The position numbers and the translations under genes were made by a program. Positions 46,263 to 52,719 of a stretch of DNA of 64,000 bases are shown piece after piece (within the stretch, counting starts at the first letter, position 1; each line of letters starts with the position of its first letter). The stretch comes from Hyunsoonleella aquatilis (GTDB lineage: Bacteria; Bacteroidota; Bacteroidia; Flavobacteriales; Flavobacteriaceae), in contig NZ_JACNMF010000002.1 of NCBI RefSeq assembly GCF_014270105.1, positions 620,001 through 684,000 on the forward strand, written 5' to 3'. The notes below the pieces were generated by a model. That model saw only the letters and a program-made list of their open reading frames with translations, made no database searches and had not been told where the DNA came from.

Positions 46263-46375
46263 GTCATTCCTGCGAAGGCAGGAATCTTATGAATTGAAAT
46301 TCAAATTCGTTTTTAAAAAGAACATATTAGAATTATGAAGGATAAAAATATAGAGATACCTGCTTCCGCAGGTAT
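46263..46375. repeat. inverted pair of ATTCCTGC/GCAGGAAT-type repeats at the hemC-hemE junction
   Basis: The left copy, 46263-46287 (arms ATTCCTGC and GCAGGAAT, loop GAAG), is in the same family as 32923. The right copy, 46356-46375 (arms ATACCTGC and GCAGGTAT, loop TTCC), is the inverted relative with one compensated change in each arm. The right copy lies wholly within the hemE reading frame. Confidence 0.75.
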
Positions 46376-47396
46376 TCGCAACGATTTATTTTTAAGAGCA
46401 TTAAAAGGTGAAACCGTTGACCGTCCACCGGTGTGGATGATGCGTCAAGCGGGGCGTTACTTGCCAGAATTCATGGAAATCAAGGCAAAGTACGATTTCT
46501 TTACCCGTTGCCAAACTCCTGAATTGGCCAGTGAAATTACAGTACAACCTATTCGAAGGTATGGCATGGATGCCGCCATTTTGTTTAGTGACATTTTAGT
46601 GATTCCGCAGGCTATGAACATCGAAGTACAGATGAAACCGAATTTTGGGCCCTACCTGCCAAACCCTGTGCGTACCTCAAAAGATGTGAACAATGCCATA
46701 GTTCCGGATGTTAAGGAAGCTTTGGATTACGTTTATCAAGCCATAAAAGCAACAAAGGAAAAATTGAACGATGAAATTCCGTTGATTGGTTTTGCCGGCT
46801 CCCCATGGACGATTTTATGTTATTGTGTACAAGGCCAAGGCAGTAAAAACTTTGATAAGGCCAAGGCATTCTGCTTTACCAACCCAGTTGCTGCGCATCA
46901 AATGCTTCAAAAAATAACAGATACTACCATTGCCTATCTCAAGGAAAAGGTAAAAGCAGGTGTAAACGCCGTGCAGGTATTCGATTCCTGGGGAGGTATG
47001 CTATCCCCCACCGATTATCAGGAGTTTTCATGGCAGTATATCAACCAAATTATCGAGGCTCTAAAAGACGATGCGCCGGTAATTGCCTTCGGTAAAGGAT
47101 GCTGGTTCGCTCTTGGCGACATGGCCAAAAGTGGCGCCTCGGCATTGGGTGTAGACTGGACTTGCTCCCCAAAAAATGCCCGTTATCTTACTGGAGGCAA
47201 CATCACCCTACAGGGTAACTTTGACCCATCACGCTTATTGTCACCACCCGAAACCATCAAAAAAATGGTACACCAAATGATTGATGAATTCGGCAAGGAT
47301 AAATATATTGTGAATCTAGGCCATGGTATTTTACCAAACATTCCGTTGGAAAATGCTAAAGCTTTTATTGACGCGGTAAAGGAATATAATATGTAA
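46335..47396 (+). CDS. hemE: uroporphyrinogen decarboxylase with a repeat-encoded N-terminus
   Basis: A 353-residue enzyme converting uroporphyrinogen III to coproporphyrinogen III. Signatures are [64 protein letters not shown] and [20 protein letters not shown]. The N-terminus [15 protein letters not shown] is unusual: residues about 8-14 are translated from a palindromic repeat (46356-46375). The typical protein begins, as I recall, at about the [11 protein letters not shown] segment. No other start codon lies closer, so translation probably begins in or before the repeat. Confidence 0.95.
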
Positions 47397-48759: not shown

Positions 48760-49506
48760 ATGATAAAAAATATCATTTCAGGAATAAAAGCTTACTTCGG
48801 CGCTTTCAGTTTGATTTCAAAACTGAAACTGTGGAAGTATTTTGCCATCCCCATGTTGATTAGTTTGGTGACCGCCATTGCCGTTTTCGGCTCGGCGTAC
48901 GGGTTTTCAGGATATATCAGCGATTGGCTTGCGAGTATTTTACCAAGTTGGGGTGGGGCCAATTGGTTGAAAGTAACTTACAGAATTATTTCAGGACTGG
49001 TCATCATTGTAGTTGGTCTCATTCTCTACAAGCACATTATTTTGGCCTTATCGGCACCCTTTATGAGTCCGGTTTCAGAAAAAATAGAAGCACATTTTAC
49101 TGGGCAACCCGCACATTCCCATAGGGATACAACGTTTACCCAACAGCTATGGCGTGGCATTCGAATCAATGGCAGAAACTTATTTATGGAATTATTGCTC
49201 ACCATTCCCATTTTGCTTTTAAAGTTGATTCCCTTGGTTAATATATTTTCAACAATCTTGTTGTTTATGGTGCAAGCCTATTATGCTGGTTTTGGTAATA
49301 TGGACTACACTTTGGAGCGTCATTTTCAATACAAAGAAAGCGTAAAGTTTGTTCGTAAAAATCGTGGATTGGCTATTGGCAATGGCATAGTATTCCTTCT
49401 CTGCCTCCTCGTGCCTATAGTTGGCGTCCTTTTAGTGTTGCCCCTTTCGGTTACGGCCGCATCAACTCGCACTGTGGAAGCTTTACAATCAAAACATGCA
49501 ACTTAA
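48760..49506 (+). CDS. EI24/CysZ-like membrane protein
   Basis: A 248-residue protein with about five helices. Family-like segments are GIKAYFGAFSLISKLKLWKYFAIPML, ALSAPFMSPVSEKIEAHFTG and FGNMDYTLERHFQYKESVKFVRKNRGLAIGNGIVFLLCLLVPIVG. It belongs to the EI24 superfamily, which includes the sulfate transporter CysZ. No sulfate genes are nearby, so the substrate is open. The last 11 bp overlap the following GNAT gene. Confidence 0.8.
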   Translation: MIKNIISGIKAYFGAFSLISKLKLWKYFAIPMLISLVTAIAVFGSAYGFSGYISDWLASILPSWGGANWLKVTYRIISGLVIIVVGLILYKHIILALSAPFMSPVSEKIEAHFTGQPAHSHRDTTFTQQLWRGIRINGRNLFMELLLTIPILLLKLIPLVNIFSTILLFMVQAYYAGFGNMDYTLERHFQYKESVKFVRKNRGLAIGNGIVFLLCLLVPIVGVLLVLPLSVTAASTRTVEALQSKHAT

Positions 49507-50038
49507 TTTAGGTTCCTGTTACATATCGCCCATTCAAACCAAAGATGCCTGGAGCATCTGTAATTTTGTTGTTGCCAATGAGGACCGATTAAAACGCTAT
49601 TTCCCAAAAACATTGGAGCAAAACTTAACACCAGATTTGTCCAATATCTTTGCAGAAAAAAAGGTAAAACAATTTGAAAATGATGAAGAATATGTGTTCA
49701 CCATTAAAAAAAATGAATCTCATAAGTTAGTTGGCTTGATTTTCCTCAAGGAAATCGATTGGACTAAAAAACAAGGAGAGTTCGCCTATTGTATTGATTA
49801 TAATATTGAAGGTCTCGGAATAATGACAACTGCTATTCAAGAATTATCGGATTACGCTTTTGACAACCTAGGTTTTGAAACGCTTCAGATTTTGGTGCAC
49901 CACAGTAATATGGGCAGTATAAAAGTCGCTGAAAACTGTAATTTTACGCATATCAAAACCTTGAAAAACAATTACACCCCTCCTAATGAAAACCCTTTGG
50001 ATATGGAATTGTATGAACTTTATAATGAGATGGAATAA
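49496..50038 (+). CDS. GNAT-family N-acetyltransferase (RimJ/RimL-like)
   Basis: A 180-residue acetyltransferase with the RimJ/RimL-type pattern: GLIFLKEIDWTKKQGEFAYCIDYNIEGLGIMTTAIQELSDYAFDNLGFETLQILVHHSNMGSIKVAENCNF. It could acetylate ribosomal-protein N-termini or other amines. It overlaps the EI24 gene and ends 3 bp before the first palindrome of the RAYT element. Confidence 0.85.
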   Translation: MQLNLGSCYISPIQTKDAWSICNFVVANEDRLKRYFPKTLEQNLTPDLSNIFAEKKVKQFENDEEYVFTIKKNESHKLVGLIFLKEIDWTKKQGEFAYCIDYNIEGLGIMTTAIQELSDYAFDNLGFETLQILVHHSNMGSIKVAENCNFTHIKTLKNNYTPPNENPLDMELYELYNEME

Positions 50039-50040
50039 TC

Positions 50041-50073
50041 AGACCTGACAGGTTTTCAAAACCTGTCAGGTCT
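50041..50073. repeat. upstream REP-type palindrome of the RAYT element
   Basis: A 33-bp perfect palindrome: arm AGACCTGACAGGTTTT, central C, then the exact reverse complement arm. It lies 15 bp before the RAYT start codon. Its reverse complement is identical to the repeat at 50613-50645. Confidence 0.92.
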
Positions 50074-50088
50074 TTGGAACAACAAAAC

Positions 50089-51582
50089 ATGGCATTAGAA
50101 ACATTAGAAAAAGACCATTATTATCATATCTTTAATCGAGGCATAAATAGTCAAACTATCTTTTTGACCGAGGATAACATGTCCTACTTTTTGAGATTAA
50201 TGGATAAACATCTGTCTCAAAAGGTAAAAGTGGTTGCTTACTGTTTAATGAACAATCATTTTCATTTAGTTGCAAAAATTGTTAGGAATGAAAGAGAAGT
50301 GACACAGGCCCTGTCCAATTTATTCAATGCCTATGCAAAAGCTTTTAACAAGCAACAAGGCAGAACAGGCGCACTTTTTGAGCGCCCATATAAAAGAATT
50401 AGAATTGATGACGAGGACTACCTGAAAAACCTCATTGTTTATATTCATAAAAATCCCGAAAACCATGGTATAGTTAAAAATTTTGAAAACTACAGATTTA
50501 CGTCTTTTCACGATTTCGCCAATCAAGGGTTTCCAGCATCTTCAGAACAAAATTATATTTTAGATTTGTTTGAAAATATCGAAAATTTCAAATTTGTGCA
50601 TAAAACTAACCCAGACCTGTCAGGTTTTGAAAACCTGACAGGTCTCAACAAGAACAAACCTAAGGTCTCATTAAAAGACAAATTCTACCAATACATACAA
50701 GATTTACAAGATAGTATCACCTCAAAGCTTGAAGAAATTGATAGCAAAGCGAAGTTCCAACAAGATATTTGGAAACGACCGGAAGGTGGAGGCGGTCGCA
50801 CTAGGGTAATTCAAAACGGTAATGTTTTTGAAAAGGGAGGCGTCAATATTTCAGGTGTTCATGGGAAATTACCAAAATCAATGCAAGCCTATTTTAAGGT
50901 AGGCGATGTGGACTTTTTTGCCTGTGGATTGAGTTTGGTGATTCACCCCAAAAGCCCAATGGTTCCAACGGTGCATGCCAATTGGCGCTATTTTGAAATG
51001 TATGATAAAGATGGGAACATTATTGATAGCTGGTTTGGTGGTGGACAGGATTTAACACCGTATTATCTGTTTGAAGAAGATGCGAAACACTTTCATCAAA
51101 CCTGCAAAACAGCTTGCGACAAGCATAACCCCGAGTTTTATTCCCAATATAAAAAACGTTGCGACGAGTACTTTTATAATACCCATAGAAATGAAGGCCG
51201 AGGAGTAGGCGGATTGTTCTTTGACTATTGCAAAGCCTCTGAGGATATCTCCATGGAAAATTGGTATAACTTTGTAACTGAAGTTGGTAATAGCTTTTTG
51301 GATGCATACATCCCTATTGTTGAAAAGCGCAAAGATTTACCATATAATGAATCCCAACGCAATTGGCAGGAAATTCGCCGTGGACGTTATGTGGAATTCA
51401 ATTTAGTACATGACAAAGGCACCCTTTTTGGACTAAAGACCAACGGTCGCATTGAAAGTATTTTAATGAGCTTACCACCACATGTACAATGGGTGTACGA
51501 CCATCATCCCGAGGCAGGAAGCGAAGAAGAAAAATTGATTAAAGTTTTAAGAAATCCGAAAGAGTGGGTAGAAGTCCCCTAA
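50089..51582 (+). CDS. hemF: RAYT transposase domain fused to oxygen-dependent coproporphyrinogen III oxidase
   Basis: One open frame of 497 codons. Residues 1 to about 172 are a REP-associated tyrosine transposase (Y1/IS200-like): the HUH-type motif NNHFHLV (His57, His59), helix FNAYAKAFNKQQGRTGALFERPYKR with the likely nucleophile Tyr82, and IVYIHKNPENHGIV. Residues about 175-186 (DLSGFENLTGL) are translated from the second palindrome. Residues about 195-497 are a complete HemF (KAKFQQDIWKRPEGGGGRTRV, HANWRYFE, FGGGQDLTPYY, RGVGGLFFDY, GRYVEFNLVHDKGT), converting coproporphyrinogen III to protoporphyrinogen IX. Where the usual HemF starts (from memory, MKDKF), this gene reads TTA-AAA-GAC-AAA-TTC (50671), so the normal ATG is gone. 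TTG 50566 or GTG 50596 could still serve as internal starts. Upstream in-frame TTG at 50074 is rejected in favour of ATG 50089. Confidence 0.9.
   Translation: MALETLEKDHYYHIFNRGINSQTIFLTEDNMSYFLRLMDKHLSQKVKVVAYCLMNNHFHLVAKIVRNEREVTQALSNLFNAYAKAFNKQQGRTGALFERPYKRIRIDDEDYLKNLIVYIHKNPENHGIVKNFENYRFTSFHDFANQGFPASSEQNYILDLFENIENFKFVHKTNPDLSGFENLTGLNKNKPKVSLKDKFYQYIQDLQDSITSKLEEIDSKAKFQQDIWKRPEGGGGRTRVIQNGNVFEKGGVNISGVHGKLPKSMQAYFKVGDVDFFACGLSLVIHPKSPMVPTVHANWRYFEMYDKDGNIIDSWFGGGQDLTPYYLFEEDAKHFHQTCKTACDKHNPEFYSQYKKRCDEYFYNTHRNEGRGVGGLFFDYCKASEDISMENWYNFVTEVGNSFLDAYIPIVEKRKDLPYNESQRNWQEIRRGRYVEFNLVHDKGTLFGLKTNGRIESILMSLPPHVQWVYDHHPEAGSEEEKLIKVLRNPKEWVEVP
50613..50645. repeat. downstream REP-type palindrome, translated as RAYT-HemF linker
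   Basis: Arm AGACCTGTCAGGTTTT, central G, then its exact reverse complement. The sequence as a whole is the exact inverse of 50041-50073, so the two form a REP/inverse-REP pair around the transposase domain. It lies inside the coding frame. Confidence 0.92.
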
Positions 51583-51727
51583 CCCCCAAAGGGTGAACTA
51601 TCACTGTTATGAGAAAAAGTATAGACGATAAAATAATAACTAGTTTCAATGCCTTAAACAAGGAAGTGAAACCCTCAAACCCTATTCACCCCTAATAGGC
51701 ATTCCCCCTTTGGGGGATAGGGGGCTT
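51575..51727. repeat. inverted C-rich/G-rich repeat pair between hemF and hemB
   Basis: CCCCTAACCCCCAAAGGG (51577-51594) and its near inverse CCCCCTTTGGGGGATAGGGG (51704-51723) face each other across about 110 bp. The left copy begins within the last codons of hemF (GTC-CCC-TAA), so the C-terminal VP residues and stop come from the repeat. The right copy ends 6 bp before the hemB ATG. A 28-codon ORF between them (51609-51695) is too short to support. Confidence 0.7.
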
Positions 51728-51729
51728 AT

Positions 51730-52719
51730 ATGTATCCATTACGTCGAAATAGAAGACTACGAATCAACGAAGCCATTCGCTCAATAGTTCGCGAAACCAT
51801 TATTACCCCTAACGATTTTTTAGTCCCACTGTTTGTAGTGGAAGGCAAAGGCATTAAAGATGAAATTCCATCGATGCCCAATTACTTCCGTTACAGTTTG
51901 GATTTATTAGAAAATGAAGTCAAAGAATTATGGACACTAGGTTTAAAGTCAGTATTGCTTTTTGTTAAAGTGCCCGATAACTTAAAAGACAATAAAGGTA
52001 CGGAGGCTTTAAATCCAAACGGATTGATGCAACGTGCTATTAAAACCGTTAAAAATGCGTGCCCAGACATGTTGGTGATGACCGATGTAGCTTTAGACCC
52101 ATACTCAGTTTATGGCCATGACGGCATTATTGAAAACGGACAAATCGTTAACGATAACACCGCCGAAGTATTGGGAGAAATGAGCCTTTCCCATGCCAAA
52201 GCTGGAGCTGATTTTGTCGCTCCAAGTGATATGATGGACGGCCGTATTTTGACCATTCGCGAAGCTTTGGAAGATGAGGGATACTTCAATACTGGGATAA
52301 TGAGTTATTCTGCCAAGTACGCCTCAGCATTTTACGGCCCATTTCGGGATGCTTTGGATTCTGCACCAGTAGATATTCAAGATATCCCAAAAGATAAAAA
52401 AACCTATCAAATGGATTTTGGCAACCGCTTTGAAGCCATTCGAGAAACTGAAATGGATATCGATGAAGGCGCGGATATCGTAATGGTAAAACCTGGGATT
52501 TCCTATTTGGATATTCTTCGGGATATCAAAAATGAGGTAGATGTTCCCGTGGCCGTTTATCAGGTGTCTGGCGAATACGCCATGATAAAAGCGGCCGCAG
52601 AAAAAGGCTGGCTGGACCACGACCAAATTATGTTGGAGACTACGACGGCTTTTAAGCGTGCTGGGGCGGATATCATAGCCTCTTACTTTGCTAAAGACAT
52701 CGTAAAATTAATTTATTAG
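51730..52719 (+). CDS. hemB: porphobilinogen synthase (delta-aminolevulinic acid dehydratase)
   Basis: A 329-residue enzyme condensing two 5-aminolevulinate molecules to porphobilinogen. The catalytic Lys residues lie in SYSAKYASAFYGPFRDA and MVKPGISYLDI. The metal-binding loop reads TDVALDPYSVYGHDGI, with Ala/Asp in place of the Cys triad, so this is the zinc-independent, Mg-type enzyme. Family motifs FVAPSDMMDGRI and VYQVSGEYAMIKAA are intact. It is last in the heme operon. Confidence 0.95.
   Translation: MYPLRRNRRLRINEAIRSIVRETIITPNDFLVPLFVVEGKGIKDEIPSMPNYFRYSLDLLENEVKELWTLGLKSVLLFVKVPDNLKDNKGTEALNPNGLMQRAIKTVKNACPDMLVMTDVALDPYSVYGHDGIIENGQIVNDNTAEVLGEMSLSHAKAGADFVAPSDMMDGRILTIREALEDEGYFNTGIMSYSAKYASAFYGPFRDALDSAPVDIQDIPKDKKTYQMDFGNRFEAIRETEMDIDEGADIVMVKPGISYLDILRDIKNEVDVPVAVYQVSGEYAMIKAAAEKGWLDHDQIMLETTTAFKRAGADIIASYFAKDIVKLIY

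Follow-up and report, generated by a model that had tools for sequence, protein, structure and literature searches.

In the window, a stretch of 64,000 nucleotides of the Hyunsoonleella aquatilis genome, one stop-free frame on the forward strand runs from an ATG at 50089 to a stop codon at 51582 and encodes, in 497 codons, a RAYT-like transposase domain followed by a complete HemF (oxygen-dependent coproporphyrinogen III oxidase), an arrangement described in an earlier note on this DNA and borne out here by the open frame and by Pfam. The features of the locus are the following.

49496..50038, + strand: upstream gene, which from sequence resemblance we take to be acetyltransferase-like
50041..50073, no strand: left perfect palindrome, 15 nt 5' of the RAYT ATG
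50089..50610, + strand: RAYT-like Y1 transposase domain, residues 1-174 (Pfam, NCBIfam, catalytic motif, fold match)
50613..50645, no strand: right perfect palindrome, read in frame as DLSGFENLTGL within the low-confidence linker
50671..50673, + strand: TTA at the position of the start ATG of unfused hemF genes (alignment)
50671..51582, + strand: HemF domain and stop codon (Pfam, NCBIfam, structure matches)
51730..52719, + strand: gene 3' of hemF, presumably hemB-like from sequence resemblance

The 497-residue product has a calculated mass of 58.3 kDa, of which the HemF part, counted from the lost start, makes up 35.4 kDa; a TTG at 50074 is an alternative start that would give 502 residues. 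Pfam places Y1_Tnp on residues 9-122 with 23.4 bits (cut-off 23) and Coprogen_oxidas (PF01218) on residues 199-493 with 452 bits (cut-off 31.8). The HemF part also reaches the NCBIfam HemF equivalog NF003727 (423 bits against a cut-off of 297) and has sequence matches to 8t7w and 1tkl. The transposase part misses the equivalog cut-off of NF047646 (REP_Tyr_transpos) with 55.5 of 80 bits, although at E<=0.001 all 47 fusions of our structure alignment (A1, comprising 47 of the 51 fusions introduced below and omitting L028, L083, L091 and L093) match this family, and 30 of them, but not the other 17, match PF01797 (Y1_Tnp). An AlphaFold2 model computed from these 47 sequences (mean pLDDT 72.5, pTM 0.51) is most confident for the RAYT part, with block means of 87-95 over residues 11-140, falls below 50 in the linker at residues 176-192, and is weaker for HemF, where several stretches lie under 50, probably because the alignment is shallow. 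Searched with Foldseek, the model returns HemF structures first, then 4er8 (TMt 0.68), which is TnpA_REP bound to a REP hairpin, and then IS608 and ISDra2. By predicted fold, motif and flanking palindromes, the RAYT label fits.

The HxH motif is formed by His57 and His59 (codons 50257 and 50263; NHFH), and Tyr118 (codon 50440) lies in YIHKNP. Among the 51 fusions His57 is conserved in 50, and His59, Tyr82 and Tyr118 in all 51. The catalytic Tyr motif of the family is given as Y-x-x-x-N-P in PMC6006769, and since YIHKNP fits this pattern, the catalytic residue is most likely Tyr118 and not, as the earlier note had supposed, the equally conserved Tyr82. The transposase thus defined looks intact. 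In the 59 of 1275 pairs with a RAYT dS below 1.2, which overlap one another and many of which have dS near 1, dN/dS is 0.08-0.38 for RAYT and about 0.01-0.08 for HemF; the constraint on RAYT that these values suggest need not date from after the fusion.

Both palindromes of the window are perfect and 33 bp long, with 16-nt arms and a 1-nt centre. Their positions before the transposase and inside the frame are as first reported, but the second is not the exact inverse of the first: each is self-complementary except at its centre, and bases are swapped between the two at two symmetric positions and also at the centre. In 100 shuffles of the window the palindrome patterns were not matched once. 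The GT[AG]G foot was found neither in nor within 8 nt of the window's two palindromes; in the fusions it is present, on one or both strands, at 18 of 41 left and 21 of 41 right palindromes, 41 of the 51 loci passing the palindrome score limit on each side (10 fall below it on the left and 10 on the right). A palindrome lies 12-45 nt 5' of the RAYT start in 39 of the 51 loci. Of the 36 loci typed on both sides, 35 have left and right palindromes of the same type, where shuffling gives a mean of 17; the types vary between loci. The remaining 15 of the 51 loci have no type for at least one palindrome, and the palindromes had already been viewed when the type patterns were drawn up. No common flanking tetranucleotide was seen beside the palindromes of the fusions.

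Other repeats adjoin genes in and around this locus. At 46335-46400 of the window, a gene which we take to be hemE-like opens with an in-frame palindrome, GATACCTGCTTCCGCAGGTATTC (IPASAGI), just 5' of its usual start, and a similar palindrome precedes this one by about 90 nt; here too the N-terminus of a heme gene takes in a repeat. C-rich repeats at 51572-51724 form the end of the HemF frame and the spacer up to the hemB-like gene, and similar repeats follow hemF in L003. In L094 and L085 the frame of the upstream gene also enters the left palindrome (ELYRPSRF), so that the unit there may extend one protein at its C-terminus and the next at its N-terminus.

An assembly join between the two domains, a hazard to which the earlier note had pointed, is excluded because the contig that contains the locus is 790 kb long and other assemblies show the same arrangement. 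With 51 distinct loci of this kind, including five in single-contig genomes (G136, G167, G178, G258 and G355), it is vanishingly improbable that the arrangement is an artefact of sequencing or assembly or that the frame is open by chance.

Distribution in the Flavobacteriaceae

A search for the same two-domain arrangement, as the earlier note had proposed, returned 78 fused loci that reduce to 52 cores and, after removal of duplicates, to 51 distinct RAYT-HemF fusions, all in Flavobacteriaceae. This number is what the searches returned, one of which kept the best 80 matches to the fusion and so favoured fusions; an evenly drawn sample of 397 family genomes provides a fairer count. In that sample 343 genomes match the fusion query and 16 match its full length, while a RAYT match at E<=1e-12 occurs in 61 genomes and includes one more fusion (G144). 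RAYTs of the clade found at hemF (hem clade) occur in 26 of the 397 genomes: 17 are fused, five are separate and lie just before hemF (G148, G172, G216, G222 and G337; spacing -4 to 216 nt), and four lie farther away in a heme locus, either before a presumably hemE-like gene (G018 and G402) or about 1 kb (G327) and 2.7 kb (G138) before hemF. The majority of the hemF-bearing genomes in the sample are without the unit. Within the genus the arrangement is found in 4 of 12 genomes (in G007 the internal stop that was counted is the terminal stop).

Named records with fusions come from, among others, Winogradskyella, Algibacter, Flavivirga, Hanstruepera, Lacinutrix, Arcticiflavibacter and Gelidibacter, and include the type strains Winogradskyella thalassocola DSM 15363 and Hyunsoonleella jejuensis DSM 21035; the separate form is found in Arenibacter and two Flavobacterium species. 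A RAYT query of 395 class genomes at E<=1e-20 gave no frame longer than 265 aa among the matches listed outside the family. We found no report of a RAYT-HemF fusion among the open-access papers listed by our searches.

In the RAYT tree, 63 RAYTs, in heme loci as far as seen, are divided from 7 others by a starred branch. This description covers the 63 tree rows, the RAYT matches having been fetched for 30 loci at most, and it includes L152 and L155, in which the stretch examined holds no hemF (in L152 hemF is 2.7 kb away, and L155 lies before a hemE-like gene). All RAYTs of the hem clade that were placed are in heme loci. The window's own genome has one RAYT match at E<=1e-10, and a second, distant RAYT occurs in G047 and G217. 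In three genomes (L157, L159 and L160) a different RAYT clade adjoins a gene that we take to be hypE-like; RAYT lineages may therefore keep fixed gene neighbours.

Start codons and translation of hemF

The TTA at 50671-50673 leaves hemF in the window without an ATG of its own where HemF normally begins, as had been noted, and many other fusions share this condition. Of the 51 fusions, 20 have ATG as hemF codon 1, among them that of Hyunsoonleella jejuensis DSM 21035, 2 have GTG and 29 have no start codon there, whereas among 55 other loci, 45 unfused and 10 separate, the codon is ATG in 53, TTG in one (L139) and GTC in one (L138, where an ATG lies a few codons earlier). Fisher's test for start loss in 29 of 51 against 1 of 55 gives 5e-11, a value that is indicative only, as the rows are related. 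Among the 51 fusions the start state changes at least 12 times on the RAYT tree and at least 15 times on the HemF tree, which implies that hemF start codons were lost, or regained, repeatedly. In the 29 start-less fusions the nearest in-frame ATG lies at least 20 codons upstream, and at least 100 codons upstream in 18 of them.

Based on this difference in start codons, the RAYT-HemF fusion is very probably the translated form. The alternative, a transcriptional but not a protein fusion, would have HemF start in the linker or the RAYT C-terminus, and the TTG at 50566 and GTG at 50596, to which the earlier note had drawn attention, do exist in frame; in the 22 of 51 fusions with an ATG or GTG kept at hemF codon 1, a separate HemF would be possible. 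However, in 26 of the 29 start-less fusions the nearest in-frame ATG, GTG or TTG is at least 20 codons upstream (67 in L075, from Hanstruepera flava NBU2984, and 94 in L022), so that products from these starts would still bear the palindrome peptide or more, and in none of the 51 loci does the linker, 48-198 nt long, interrupt the frame. We consider such a purely transcriptional arrangement, which might also use a non-standard codon, distinctly unlikely. Two loci have unusual linkers, L020 and L028 carrying runs of nine or more asparagines between RAYT and HemF. In L004, L029, L027 and L149, differing and partly repeat-like in-frame insertions occupy one HemF loop after YFEMY/YFEIY, a second spot in hemF entered by short sequences.

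The spacing to neighbouring genes differs between the forms. Unfused hemF starts -11 to +6 nt from the stop of the upstream gene in 31 of 43 loci (those of the 45 unfused loci with a same-strand upstream gene), which suggests that it is translationally coupled to that gene. In the 50 of 51 fused units that were measured, the median distance from the upstream stop to the start of the unit is 66 nt. Among 12 loci with separate units, two of which repeat others, hemF codon 1 is ATG throughout; the units of L134 and L148 overlap hemF by 4 nt, that of L147 lies 5 nt from it, and all other non-overlapping separate units are at least 155 nt away, five of them 155 to 216 nt 5' of unfused hemF (L102/L150 counted once).

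Exchange of the unit between species

We compared eight pairs of loci picked from the trees, two filled/empty, two sharing the unit, and four in which the unit differs (L094/L085, L080/L098, L089/L104 and L082/L104). L072 (Algibacter) and L103 (Hyunsoonleella jejuensis) are identical at 496 of 513 nt in RAYT and 96 of 102 nt in the linker, as against 460 of 590 upstream and 632 of 756 in the rest of hemF, and RAYT dS is 0.08 compared with 1.38 for HemF. Likewise, L092 and L093, from two Winogradskyella species, share 500 of 507 nt in RAYT, 439 of 483 upstream and 678 of 777 in the rest of hemF, with a RAYT dS of 0.03 and a HemF dS of 1.00. In both pairs the unit is thus near-identical between flanks that differ by 9-22%. 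The reverse is seen in L094/L085 (RAYT 353 of 518, upstream 505 of 561, rest of hemF 747 of 777) and L089/L104 (RAYT 316 of 503, upstream 513 of 562, rest of hemF 717 of 777), where flanks 90-96% identical enclose very different units. The switch in identity falls, on the right, at hemF codon 1 or no more than a few codons from it and, on the left, close to a palindrome or to the last codons of the upstream gene. In L080/L098, with hemF 96% and RAYT 59% identical, the exchange was wider than the unit, since the upstream flank is also unlike.

Related genomes with hemF and no RAYT, which the earlier note had suggested seeking, are common, and in the filled/empty pair L071/L040 the filled locus has a clean insert that separates the upstream TAG from the hemF ATG, with no target duplication seen. 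L139/L076 is a second empty/filled pair, although a deletion derivative is also possible for the empty site of L139. Inheritance of one ancestral fusion along with HemF is not supported, as the pairwise identities of RAYT and HemF correlate at 0.48 and single pairs disagree strongly. The fused label changes 6 times on the RAYT tree and 25 times on the HemF tree, starred branches forcing 1 and 6 changes, respectively; these counts are not like for like because unfused loci without RAYT are in the HemF tree only, and both trees are quick ones with many unresolved forks. Judged from these comparisons, the palindrome-RAYT-palindrome unit behaves like a module that is swapped between species at a single site.

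Inspection by eye found a short RAYT N-terminal remnant and a palindrome remnant before an unfused hemF with an ATG in L010, indicating that units also decay, and a palindrome remnant alone upstream of hemF in L119 and L120. These remnants are possible scars of lost units. A narrow motif scan for scars in the upstream regions of unfused hemF was positive in 2 of 45 (L119 and L135) and missed the palindrome adjoining hemF in L119.

Proposed mechanism and related systems

Taking together what can be read from the sequences, namely the open frame and its recurrence, the start loss, a RAYT dN/dS below 1, the intact motif, and the exchange and presence or absence of the unit, we consider it likely that a REPtron-like unit took over the start of hemF, that its frame runs on into HemF and that it spreads as a module. 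The earlier proposal that a REP-RAYT unit at the hemF start captured its translation gains support from the 51 fusions, the 29 lost starts, the L071/L040 pair and the exchange. In the proposed course of events, the unit would fill the junction where the upstream gene ends and hemF codon 1 follows, and, with no stop in its frame, ribosomes starting on RAYT would pass through the palindrome linker into HemF, yielding a 58-kDa RAYT-HemF protein. Insertion would break the coupling of hemF to the upstream gene, and fusion or a stop/start overlap would restore it. An in-frame fusion would be favoured because translation of hemF would normally be tightly coupled to that of the upstream gene; separate units that stand farther off mean that restoring coupling in these ways is not obligatory. 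Once the hemF start is lost, decay of the unit would cost the cell HemF, and the unit would be protected. The unit could move between species through RAYT-catalysed single-strand insertion or through recombination across the hem locus.

How strong such protection would be depends on other enzymes of the step. That HemF is the only coproporphyrinogen oxidase and its loss lethal is not supported, since the genome carries genes that we take to be HemN-like (L162) and HemW-like (L161) from PF06969 matches and sequence features. With these genes present, loss of HemF need not be lethal, and any protection of the unit is probably conditional on oxygen.

As to how the unit moves, we tentatively advance, as rather less than an even prospect, that it is a homing element: the Y1 unit would use its own activity to re-insert at the 5' end of hemF, bring the start with it and, through its hold on HemF translation, resist loss (start-codon capture), a newcomer replacing the resident between palindrome and codon 1. 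Passive movement, in which DNA uptake and homologous recombination swap the module and RAYT activity plays no part, is a serious contender that we rate only somewhat below even. A clade found only in heme loci has related flanks for recombination, the identical tract of L072/L103 takes in about 8 of the last codons of the upstream gene, and in L080/L098 the upstream flank differs along with the unit. Yet recombination tracts would be expected to enter hemF in some cases, whereas identity switches at or near hemF codon 1 in L072/L103, L092/L093, L094/L085 and L089/L104, and the catalytic residues are kept in 50-51 of 51 fusions.

The unit might instead encode a domesticated two-domain protein useful to the host, whose RAYT part binds its own palindromes as DNA or RNA and tunes hemF or places HemF. 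A RAYT dN/dS below 1, the regular placement of a palindrome shortly before the RAYT start and retention in many species are in line with this, but sister loci are without the unit, and RAYTs differing at 33-41% of nucleotides have been swapped while HemF stayed nearly the same, which argues against a specific, co-adapted host function and makes this explanation unlikely. Domestication in the sense of strict inheritance, implied by the earlier note, is also a poor fit with exchange between species.

The closest known system is TnpA_REP, or the REPtron (4er8), with which the unit shares the Y1 HUH fold, the HxH and Tyr motifs, one copy in the window's genome and palindromes on both sides. It differs in that the hem-clade RAYT is read in frame into a metabolic enzyme and exchanged between species at one gene, in missing the NCBIfam equivalog cut-off, and in that the window's palindromes are without the GTAG/GTGG foot of canonical REPs. 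REPs have many genomic copies, whereas the genome-wide palindrome count that the earlier note had called for gives 5 places within 3 mismatches. The IS200/IS605 elements IS608 and ISDra2 resemble the unit in their Y1 fold, end hairpins and insertion without target duplication, which is general for that family; they are typically multi-copy, unlike the one copy beside one gene here, and the fold here is closer to TnpA_REP. Inteins and group I introns are homing elements that, like the hem unit, settle at a single site of a conserved gene, do not destroy that gene and pass from species to species. In the hem unit, however, there is no splicing, the host protein would be a fusion, and the nuclease is of the Y1 single-strand type. 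Compared with ordinary HemF, the domain is complete, with a transposase added at its N-terminus and, in 29 of the 51 fusions, no start codon of its own.

In PMC6006769, TnpA_Y1 subclass 2.4, abundant in Bacteroidetes, is described as carrying REPs inside the transposase gene with the frame unbroken. REP-type palindromes within a coding sequence that keeps its frame are found here too; those of subclass 2.4 generally lie between HuH and Tyr, and here the palindrome follows the transposase core as the HemF linker. The HuH-Tyr spacing of 61 residues fits neither subclass 2.4 (median 88) nor 2.6 (82) as reported there. The same text states that unexpectedly long proteins were discarded as 'gene fusions or annotation errors', a step that may have hidden RAYT fusions.

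Two papers disagree on the inheritance of RAYTs: PMC8049555 regards RAYTs as single-copy, vertically inherited and domesticated, and PMC6006769 reports a patchy occurrence that would fit horizontal transfer and loss, the view with which the exchange described here agrees. In the Flavobacteriaceae, a RAYT clade appears to be bound to one host gene by translation and yet exchanged between species at that gene, which opens the maintenance, mobility and function of a RAYT to direct tests in type strains that are in culture. If confirmed, this would show one way for a mobile unit to protect itself, in that it provides the start codon from which a metabolic enzyme is translated.
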